From: Clostridiales bacterium | GTDB taxonomy: Bacteria > Bacillota > Clostridia > Lachnospirales > Lachnospiraceae | Assembly (NCBI GenBank): GCA_012839295.1 | Contig: DUNO01000028.1 | Span: 1-40,599, forward strand | DNA length: 40,599 bases | Direction: 5' to 3' | Part shown: positions 9,678 to 34,440 of the stretch, piece by piece | How the letters are laid out: every line of letters starts with the position of its first letter | How positions within the stretch are numbered: position 1 is the stretch's first letter | Notes under the pieces: generated by a model | Databases searched by the model: none | What the model was told of the DNA's origin: nothing | What the model saw: only the letters and a program-made list of their open reading frames with translations | Position numbers and translations under genes: made by a program

Positions 9678-9813
9678 ATTTCAAGGGAAAAATATATTTC
9701 CTAGCATTTAAGCAAGAAAATATGCCTTCTGTATTCAAGCAAGAAAATATGCCTTTCACATTCAAGTAAGAAAATATATCCTCCATATTCAAGCAGGAAA
9801 ATATGCTTTCTAC
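9678..9813. repeat. 27-bp tandem repeat, five copies
   Basis: Units at 9678-9705 (diverged, 28 bp), 9706-9732, 9733-9759, 9760-9786 and 9787-9813. Shared core: TTCAAGCAAGAAAATATG. Copies are directly adjacent without spacers, so this is not a CRISPR array. The period is a multiple of three and keeps reading frames open on the minus strand. Confidence 0.9.
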
Positions 9814-9820
9814 CTTTCAT
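9701..9820 (-). CDS. Small ORF encoding a 9-residue repeat peptide (39 aa)
   Basis: Not a recognised family. Reading the 27-bp repeat on the minus strand from the ATG at 9818-9820 gives a 39-residue peptide in which the unit HIFLLEYxR is repeated about four times (HIFLLEYGG, YIFLLECER, HIFLLEYRR, HIFLLKC) before a TAG. A very strong AGGAGGAGGTG (9830-9840) sits nine nucleotides upstream of the ATG, immediately after the rhamnosidase gene. The peptide would be amphipathic and basic with hydrophobic IFLL blocks. A second frame is also open through the repeat, so this may be a by-product of repeat expansion beside a chance Shine-Dalgarno sequence. Confidence 0.35.
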   Translation of the reverse strand: MKGRKHIFLLEYGGYIFLLECERHIFLLEYRRHIFLLKC

Positions 9821-9865
9821 GCAGAAAAGCACCTCCTCCTTTTGCGGCCATAGGAACCTCAAAAA

Positions 9866-18936: not shown

Positions 18937-18956
18937 TTGTTGCAATGTCTAAAATA

Positions 18957-19084
18957 CGCTGACTATACCGGCTAGCATGCTTAAAACATGTTGACTATAC
19001 CCGTTAACTTGCTTAATATATGTTGACTATGCCCGTTAACTTGCTTAACATATGTTGACTATACCCGTTACCATATTTAAAAGG
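18957..19084. repeat. 32-bp tandem repeat, four copies
   Basis: Units at 18957-18988, 18989-19020, 19021-19052 and 19053-19084; the middle two differ at only two positions. Core: GACTATACCCGTTAACTTGC. The copies abut without spacers. They lie 100-230 bp upstream of the binding-protein start and next to the greA terminator. Period 32 bp equals about three helical turns, so equivalent sites would face the same side of the DNA. Confidence 0.9.
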
Positions 19085-19137: not shown

Positions 19138-19641
19138 TCAATACTTCCTTAATTCATCCTCCCCATTATCCTCCAGCTTTTCTATCTTTCTGATGACCAC
19201 CTCATAAAAGCTGGTATCATTTGCCTTCACCGTAATCTGATCGGATACCTTATGGCGCAATAAGGCCTTTCCCAGGGGCGAATCGATGCTTATCCTGCCT
19301 TTTAGGGAATTTGACCTGACAGTGGTCACGATTTTCACCGTCTCCTCTTCCTCGTCCGCCGGGTAATAGATCGTCACCCTGTCATTTAGCCCCACCTCGT
19401 CTGAGATGGAATCCTCGGGAATAATCCTGGCCGTTTTTATCATCCGCTCCAGGTACCTTATTCTGCTCTCATTTTGGTTTTTGAATTGCTTTGCCGCCTT
19501 ATATTCAAAATTCTCGCTTAAATCCCCATGGGCCCTGGCTTCCTTTACATCCTCAAGGGCTTCCTTCCTTACCACCAGCTTACGGTATTCAATCTCTTCC
19601 TCCATTCGTTTTACATCCTTCTGCGTTATCCTGTCATACAT
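19138..19641 (-). CDS. greA: GreA/GreB-family transcription elongation factor
   Basis: Rescues backtracked RNA polymerase by stimulating cleavage of the extruded RNA 3' end. The 167-residue protein has the N-terminal coiled coil with the acidic tip AHGDLSENFEY (Asp40 and Glu43 correspond to the metal-positioning residues) and the C-terminal globular domain with ISIDSPLGKALLRHKVSD. The tip is complete, so cleavage activity is expected. It may be a second Gre paralogue. A GGGATAGGG sequence precedes the ATG at 19641. The 5' leader contains a hexanucleotide repeat. Confidence 0.88.
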   Translation of the reverse strand: MYDRITQKDVKRMEEEIEYRKLVVRKEALEDVKEARAHGDLSENFEYKAAKQFKNQNESRIRYLERMIKTARIIPEDSISDEVGLNDRVTIYYPADEEEETVKIVTTVRSNSLKGRISIDSPLGKALLRHKVSDQITVKANDTSFYEVVIRKIEKLEDNGEDELRKY

Positions 19642-19705
19642 AACCCTATCCCTTTCTCCTGCTCCTATTCTCTATTCTTCGCTTACTTTCTGAAACTATG
19701 ATTCC

Positions 19706-19770
19706 CCTATTCCTATTCCTATTCCTATTCCTATTCCTATTCCTATTCCTATTCCTATTCCTATTCCTAT
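19706..19770. repeat. Hexanucleotide microsatellite (CCTATT)10
   Basis: Ten perfect copies of CCTATT from 19706 to 19765 plus a partial copy, with degenerate copies on both sides. On the greA (minus) strand this is (AATAGG)n, beginning about at the expected transcription start and running within the leader. Long perfect hexamers are prone to slippage. Confidence 0.95.
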
Positions 19771-19775
19771 GTATC

Positions 19776-19804
19776 ATTATTACCCAGAGAAGATTTTTTG
19801 TAAA
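19776..19804 (-). promoter_or_regulatory. Putative greA promoter
   Basis: Minus strand TTTACA (19799-19804), 17-nt spacer, AATAAT (19776-19781). The hexamer repeat starts about 6 nt downstream of the -10 element. Match is moderate and unproven. Confidence 0.45.
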
Positions 19805-19885
19805 TGGCCGATTTTCAATTTCCAAGCAATAATATCCACAAAATAATATGATTCAAGCAACAAAAGTCTTCCCATAAACTAGCGC

Positions 19886-20006
19886 GGTGAATGCGGGGGC
19901 ATATCGGGGCATCTGGCGCAGACCGGGCATCCCATGATTGCCTGCACTTGGTAATCATGGGATGTTAAAGGCAAGCCAGATGCCCCGATATGCCCCCGCA
20001 TTCACC
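19886..20006. repeat. 121-bp intergenic hairpin with perfect 32-bp arms and nested stem
   Basis: Outer arms 19886-19917 and 19975-20006 are perfect 32-bp complements (arm begins GGTGAATGCGGGGGCATATC). Inner arms 19928-19939 (CATCCCATGATT) and 19953-19964 are perfect 12-bp complements around a 13-nt loop. The two internal single-stranded segments are both exactly 10 nt. GC content of the arms is far above the flanks. Neither side has a long U-run. It lies between divergent greA and the padR operon. Confidence 0.9.
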
Positions 20007-20043
20007 TCACAACCTAAAACTCAAAATTTTTTCAAAAAAGTAC

Positions 20044-20088
20044 TTTACCTGTCGTAGTAATTATGCTATACTCATATTACTACGACAG
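20044..20088 (+). promoter_or_regulatory. padR promoter with overlapping 13-bp inverted-repeat operator
   Basis: TTTACC (20044-20049), 17-nt spacer, TATACT (20067-20072) with extended TGC. The perfect 13-bp arms CTGTCGTAGTAAT (20049-20061) and ATTACTACGACAG (20076-20088) flank the -10, leaving a 14-nt spacer that contains it. This is the expected layout for repression by the encoded PadR protein. Confidence 0.8.
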
Positions 20089-20126
20089 ACGAAGTACGAT
20101 AGATGGAGTAGAAAGGAGGAAGCTAT

Positions 20127-20459
20127 TTGATCAGCAGTGATGTTATCAGGGGTTACAATGATACCATCATCCTTTACCTTCTTCTTGGCGGAGAATCTTA
20201 TGGGTATGAAATATCAAAGAACATCAAGGAGCTATCCGAGGAAAAATATATCATGAAGGAAACAACCCTCTATTCTGCCTTTGACCGGCTGGAAAAGAAC
20301 GGATATATTGAATCCTTCTACGGCGATGAGACCTTCGGAAAGCGACGTACTTATTATAGGATCACCCCCAAAGGCCAGGCTTATTACAAAGAGAAATGCG
20401 AAGAATGGGAGCTTACAAAGGATGTTATTAACCGATTTATAAAGGAGTGGAATGTATAA
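20127..20459 (+). CDS. PadR-family transcriptional regulator
   Basis: Winged-helix repressor of 110 residues, PadR-s2 short type. Recognition segments are YGYEISKNIKELS, the helix ETTLYSAFDRLEKNGYIES and the wing KRRTYYRITPKGQAYY. The start is TTG at 20127, set by GAAAGGAGG eight nucleotides upstream; no ATG is better placed. It overlaps the next gene by one nucleotide (TAATG). It probably represses its own operon through the inverted repeat over the promoter and is released by a stress or ligand not visible here. Confidence 0.9.
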   Translation: MISSDVIRGYNDTIILYLLLGGESYGYEISKNIKELSEEKYIMKETTLYSAFDRLEKNGYIESFYGDETFGKRRTYYRITPKGQAYYKEKCEEWELTKDVINRFIKEWNV

Positions 20460-34290: not shown

Positions 34291-34440
34291 GATTACTCCA
34301 AAAATCCTATATAAATTACTCTGAAAAATCCTACATAAACTACTTTAGAAAAAACCCACATAAACTACTTTAGAAAAATCCTACATAAACCACTTTAGAA
34401 AAATCCTGCATAAATCACCCTAGAAAAAATCCTGCATAAT
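34291..34440. repeat. 25-bp tandem repeat, six copies, overlapping the 3' end of a gene
   Basis: Units of 24-26 bp, core ACTTTAGAAAAATCCTACAT, from about 34291 to 34440. The outermost copy includes the last codons and TAG stop of the oxidoreductase beta gene (34420). The remaining copies extend into the intergenic side, as if the gene end had been duplicated repeatedly. No spacers, so not CRISPR. Confidence 0.85.

Follow-up and report, generated by a model that had tools for sequence, protein, structure and literature searches.

A dispersed foldback element in a Clostridiales genome with a conserved hairpin and a putative structured RNA

The hairpin between greA and padR

The window, which is the whole stretch of 40,599 nucleotides that was analysed, contains a long hairpin that sits between the divergent genes greA and padR (Pfam names) and not behind a gene. 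Its outer arms, 19886-19917 and 19975-20006, are 32 nt each and 100% complementary, exactly as the first-pass annotation had described them. The perfect nested 12-bp stem of that annotation was also recovered; its 12 perfect pairs can be extended past one G-T to 15 nt (19928-19942/19950-19964, 93%). The two internal segments, 19918-19927 and 19965-19974, had been called symmetrical. This applies to their length, which is 10 nt each, but not to their sequences, which differ. Among the eight inverted repeats listed for the window (at least 16 nt, at most 300 bases apart) two are perfect, and the hairpin is the longer of these, the second measuring 16 nt.

Folded as RNA, the + strand reaches a minimum free energy of -102.9 kcal/mol, compared to -44.4 (sd 4.0) for shuffled sequences (z -14.5), none of 200 shuffles being as low. 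The - strand, with -94.6 kcal/mol (z -11.6), is likewise far under its shuffles. A search for intrinsic-terminator-like sites, meaning a short GC hairpin followed by a U-run, found none in 19780-20130, which agrees with the initial view that the structure is unlike a normal terminator and has no U-run. An Rfam search of 19600-20300 produced eight weak hits, all under the gathering score, and no known family. The microRNA hits, which are far under their gathering scores, were dismissed as hairpin look-alikes.

The hairpin is the core of an element of about 170-200 bp, and the mobile unit at this locus exceeds the hairpin and covers about 19850-20019. Read on the + strand, it starts with a left terminal inverted repeat at 19850-19866 (GATTCAAGCAACAAAAG; family GATTYGVSCGNCAAAWG), found by pattern match with two mismatches (15/17), and continues with a conserved left hairpin foot at 19878-19885, defined by alignment (family ACTAACGC; window copy ACTAGCGC). 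The left outer arm is hypervariable among copies yet paired, as seen from the pairing and from the comparison of copies. It leads into the 5' half of a conserved internal loop (19918-19927, GCAGACCGGG), whose columns are invariant or nearly so in 36 aligned copies and which is common to four genomes. The apical stem with its loop at 19943-19949 (19928-19964 in all) is supported by pairing and covaries. The 3' half of the internal loop (19965-19974, TTAAAGGCAA) is again conserved in the aligned copies and in four genomes, and the right outer arm is by its pairing the perfect complement of the left one. Alignment finally defines a conserved right foot box at 20007-20019, the family form of which, CCTCACAGCCTAAA, begins within the arm. 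Beyond this box, the right terminal repeat of the window copy is degenerate.

A single promoter-like match is aimed in + direction at the hairpin. It occupies 19819-19847, close to the element but not within it, and is based on the consensus alone. A promoter within the left end was considered and discarded: a -10-like TATACT stands at the foot of many copies, with no convincing -35, and in the window copy none was predicted there. Ahead of padR there is a separate inverted repeat (20040-20061/20076-20097, 22 nt, 86%), which overlaps a promoter-like site. Since the palindrome upstream of padR is also visible in two relatives (G012 and G033), the region 20040-20097 is predicted to be, and likely is, a PadR operator.

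The element belongs to a dispersed, lineage-restricted family

We searched the element's own genome (G000; 6.36 Mb in 82 contigs) with the 133-bp unit as the query and obtained at least 65 matches (best 40 of 113 candidates scored), some of which are duplicates on both strands. A strict core pattern, AGACCGGGC N20-45 TTAAAGGCAAG, is found in 68 places, split 39 to 29 between the two strands; the reversed control pattern is found in none. Many dispersed copies had been named beforehand as the mark of a mobile element, and this is what the genome contains. Both flanks are available for 54 of the 68 places; the remaining 14 are at contig ends. Some of these 14 probably represent opposite halves of a single copy: in L037 and L044 the rare core is identical, and the two lack opposite flanks. 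This puts the true number of copies with the strict core in this genome at about 60 to 68. Several of its contigs (e.g. C12, C25, C29, C31, C32, C41, C46, C49 and C64) begin or stop inside a copy, so that the repeat breaks up the assembly and leaves some uncertainty in the count of copies. As copies of the family are found across many contigs and also outside this genome, there is little likelihood of an assembly artefact at the site in the window, a possibility that the first-pass annotation had raised as a refutation.

Among 61 genomes (the own genome and 60 relatives) the strict core occurs only in the own genome and in a Herbinix sp. MAG (G012), which has 15. With a looser core pattern, GCGCAGACCGG N20-60 AAGGCAAG, six genomes of the genus were surveyed. 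It gave 63 matches in G000, 42 in G012, 8 in G031, 5 in G029 and none in G010 and G004, the controls being 0, and relatives of the element are present in three congeners. The elements of G029, G031 and G012 are about 180-195 bp long, fold from end to end and have the same internal loop (L187-L190, L200 and L202). G010 has 52 matches to the pattern of the element ends; the loci sampled there (e.g. L173, L174, L178, L184, L194 and L196) are a different, multi-stem element of about 300 bp with the same ends and without this core.

A wider search of genome contigs returned 17 stretches, 12 of them contigs of a single Herbinix sp. MAG and five from unrelated genomes. One of the five, L121 of Caldicoprobacter, has no paired arms and was left out of later counts, and the other four, with spacings of 50-53 and not 55-56, were taken as chance matches. 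Carriage by phages or viruses was also rejected: 27 viral stretches with the core pattern have no long paired arms, and several of them are one coding-like sequence, while 11 viral stretches with the end pattern have no second end (at most two mismatches, within the stretch examined). A literature search found no description that we recognised as the present family.

Ends, target duplications and an empty site indicate mobility

The unit is bordered by GATTYG... and ...CRAATC, inverted ends that form terminal inverted repeats of about 17 bp. With at most two mismatches, the end pattern has 82 matches in the own genome, compared to 17 for the reversed control, and a 19-base form with at most one mismatch is present in 11 of 34 genomes of the genus. 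Paired ends are seen in L123, L187, L189 and L200. In most copies the right end is degraded: of 69 copies, only 4 match in at least 14 of 17 positions at both terminal repeats and just 5 at the right one, so that this end is poorly defined. L123 (G000:C72:158616-158697) has both ends but lacks the hairpin, as though the palindrome had been neatly removed.

Target duplications were scored in the 49 of 83 strict-core copies (68 own and 15 of G012) in which both ends can be placed by a loose match. When the flanks are matched as duplications of 7-8 bp the score is 67.5, compared to 15.4 (sd 6.3) for shuffled flanks, and 0 of 2000 shuffles reach it. Individually, three copies show 8/8, one shows 7/7 and 33 of the 49 show none. 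In relatives, 21 more elements score 70.5, compared to 16.8 (sd 6.2) and a largest shuffle of 44; six of these have 7/7 duplications and seven none by that measure. Moreover, at the greA-padR locus of the window, the one locus covered by this comparison, the site is empty in two relatives. The two genes are adjacent without the element in G012, with greA 92% and padR 95% identical, and likewise in G033, with greA 78% and padR 83% identical.

Frames around the own copies were also compared with the 15 strict-core loci of G012 (best 40 pairs), and among the copies with sufficient flank, which those at contig ends lack, no insertion site common to both genomes was seen. Long matches between the two genomes beyond the element itself have 23-38% identity (46% in one match of 57 residues), compared to 92-95% for the orthologues greA and padR, and are therefore paralogues.

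RUP elements are mobilised by an IS630-type transposase. In six genomes we scanned the loci of three transposase families for element ends, PF00872 (IS256; 6 matches), PF01610 (ISL3; 8) and PF01609 (DDE_Tnp_1; 9), and none of these loci is bounded by a pair of ends. A PF01609 locus of G010 (L231), which has one end nearby with one mismatch, was rejected as an autonomous partner; it reads as an IS inserted into an about 300-bp MITE (L177).

REP/BIME sequences are palindromic repeats that are often found behind genes. REP units form hairpins of about 20-40 nt with tetranucleotide guides, and they are not known to have terminal repeats or target duplications. The present elements resemble them in being palindromic and often behind genes, but have terminal repeats and target duplications and are therefore MITE-like rather than REP-like. 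The mobile palindromic element that had been suggested as either thus turns out to be the former, and its assignment to a lineage-restricted foldback MITE family is well supported.

The fold is kept while the arms diverge

We aligned 36 of the 83 strict-core copies. RNAalifold assigns 50 pairs to them, 28 of which are changed on both sides. Of the alignment cells, 98.6% are paired, compared to 88.3% when shuffled and at most 41.8% when slid, and the covariation score is 0.340, compared to 0.139 and at most 0.071. The structure was taken from the same alignment, which biases the figure for cells paired in its favour. Covarying stems had been proposed as the sign of an RNA, and covariation is indeed strong among these copies.

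The sequence of the arms is highly diverse. After 13 of the 68 own copies had been dropped, the 55 whose arms are complete contain 54 distinct 23-base arm segments, with a mean difference of 11.4 in 23 positions. The near-perfect arms, which the first-pass annotation had ascribed to recent origin, active maintenance or a mobile element, are a trait of the family and nothing peculiar to the copy in the window. The letters of the internal loop, in contrast, are invariant or nearly so in the 36 aligned copies, which is partly imposed by the search pattern. Both strict loop halves are also present in 18 of 20 loci found by BLAST alone, L007 and L014 being slightly different, and the loop of the sister subfamilies agrees under the looser core pattern. 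The inner ~120 nt, arranged around the conserved internal loop, are strongly constrained to pair.

To relate pairing to the state of the ends, 69 copies with enough flank were grouped. Where both ends match in at least 14 of 17 positions, 125 of 128 cells are paired (97.7%, four copies); where one end does, 837 of 864 (27 copies); and where neither end is recognisable, 1175 of 1216 (96.6%, 38 copies). Since pairing is equal without recognisable ends, the arms are either kept after insertion or corrected, though copies in the last group may never have had good ends.

Mismatches on one strand are mostly G-U and rarely A-C

The mismatches within the stems are unevenly distributed. On the + strand, those in the apical stem are G-U in 77 cases and A-C in 6 (79 copies); without one position, which contributes 32 G-U and 1 A-C, the ratio is 45 to 5. 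In the outer arms it is 43 to 14 (70 copies). Since the copies share ancestry, these counts do not represent independent events. The bias recurs, more weakly, in 41 copies of the sister subfamilies (G012, G029 and G031), with 83 G-U and 29 A-C, which divide into 30:2 in the apical stem and 53:27 in the arms. One common arm position adds to these latter counts, and as the arm alignment overruns the paired part there, it also includes 146 mismatches of other kinds and 143 gaps. Because mismatches on one strand are mostly G-U and not A-C, the asymmetry points to a functional single strand, most likely RNA.

It may be, though we would put this below an even chance, that the hairpin matters as DNA alone, template switching at the replication fork (quasipalindrome correction) keeping the arms identical without any selected RNA. 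Between the window copy (L001) and L002, its closest match, there are four differences in the arm and one at the foot, each of them matched on the other arm, as correction would have it; the arms that remain paired in copies with unrecognisable ends fit as well. Symmetric correction of arms, however, predicts neither an excess of G-U over A-C on one strand nor an internal loop that is invariant and asymmetric in sequence.

Copies often adjoin the stop codon of an incoming gene

A right-hand gene can be called in 51 of the 54 own copies with both flanks, and in 41 of the 51 it points towards the element. We then scored incoming frames of at least 100 codons that stop at most 60 nt from the foot in 60 own and G012 copies, 23 having been dropped for short flanks. 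Such a frame is present on the right only in 29 copies, on the left only in two and on neither side in 29. Frames come in from both sides in 26 cases, and in 21 of these the right-hand frame lies closer. In the 41 sister copies the same test gives 15 on the right only, 4 on the left only and 22 with none, so that the bias of position, like that of strand, recurs more weakly. With a lower limit of 70 codons, 58 of 75 copies have an open frame that terminates no more than about 150 nt from the right foot (median 36 nt), and two of the 58 are frames that run into the hairpin. As the right side adjoins the stop of the incoming gene, the G-U-rich (+) strand is usually antisense to that gene. In L048, L050, L079, L083, L094 and L062, the right foot box (TTTAGGCTGTGAGG in minus-strand reading) or a close variant of it occurs as tandem repeats between stop codon and hairpin.

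This arrangement would suit a hairpin that acts in the mRNA of the preceding gene, as a 3'-UTR stabiliser, an RNase III site or an aid to termination, in line with proposals for NEMIS and ERIC, its mobility being incidental. Frames that end near the right foot in most copies, a gene that is faced by the same side of the element across copies and the very stable folding of both strands all speak for such a role. Nevertheless, we regard it as rather unlikely. The strand present in that mRNA is the one that carries A-C and not G-U mismatches, the window copy lacks a terminator-like U-run, and almost half of the copies, as counted above, have no incoming frame of the required length ending close by on either side. 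A fixed, locus-unique structured RNA, be it a terminator or a regulatory leader, would accord with a very stable structure near a regulated promoter (the operator-like palindrome at 20040-20097) but is highly improbable given 68 dispersed places in the own genome, the empty greA-padR site in two relatives and the lack of any Rfam family at gathering score.

A foldback MITE with a putative structured RNA

Taken together, the reading that we favour, and consider quite likely overall, combines a foldback MITE with a structured RNA of the + strand. For the second part of this reading, the putative use of the fold as + strand RNA, which covariation and strand asymmetry support, we see about an even chance. 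The elements would be moved in trans by a DDE-type transposase, and the constrained molecule would be the single strand of + orientation, most likely RNA, which would usually be antisense to the gene with the adjoining stop codon. The internal loop might be recognised by a protein that binds RNA, for instance one of the RNase III type. Insertions may persist mainly just behind genes, where they would be nearly harmless or would influence the 3' end. More tentatively, and with well below an even chance in our view, the element could be a vehicle for a small structured RNA, antisense to the preceding gene, whose loop is bound by a host protein or a transposase-related one and whose folding is needed for spread or for a 3'-end effect. 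If so, the arms would diversify freely but in concert, and each copy would have its own duplex sequence.

According to PMC2229807, bacterial MITEs are about 100-200 bp long and give RNAs with long stable stem-loops, and the present family is of this same kind. The comparisons that follow are by description. The Correia/NEMIS elements of Neisseria are MITEs of about 107 and 155 bp and have been proposed to be RNase III substrates (PMC2229807). The present family resembles them in its terminal inverted repeats, target duplication and predicted long stem-loop RNA. NEMIS ends, however, carry a TA dinucleotide, whereas here the duplications are 7-8 bp, and the passages of PMC2229807 consulted make no mention for NEMIS of strand-specific covariation, a conserved internal loop or an orientation relative to stop codons. 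ERIC (IRU/RU-1) elements, dispersed repeats of 127 bp for which an orientation-dependent effect on upstream mRNA stability has been reported (PMC2229807), are similar in their dispersal and stem-loop RNA, but are enterobacterial and have TA at their termini. RUP of Streptococcus pneumoniae is, like the present element, a small MITE of a Firmicute with a stem-loop RNA, but has a 9-bp terminal repeat with a TA motif (PMC2229807).

Compared by description, this is a new structured MITE family, set apart from the NEMIS and ERIC type by its ends, target duplication, internal loop, strand-specific covariation and host group; the functional role of its hairpin is putative. Proof that bacterial MITEs maintain their fold requires covariation, beyond the description of a stable stem-loop. 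With a duplex whose sequence is nearly free, pairing that is kept, a fixed loop and one favoured strand, more than 50 copies in one genome and the sister subfamilies amount to a natural experiment. With it, one could test directly whether the hairpins of MITEs function as RNA and what makes them accumulate behind genes.

Other repeats in the window

Between greA and the element there is a perfect tandem array of CCTATT with 10.8 copies (19706-19770). Further tandem arrays outside the element are found at 18950-19070, 9689-9828 and 34300-34439, with periods of 32, 27 and 25 bases, respectively.
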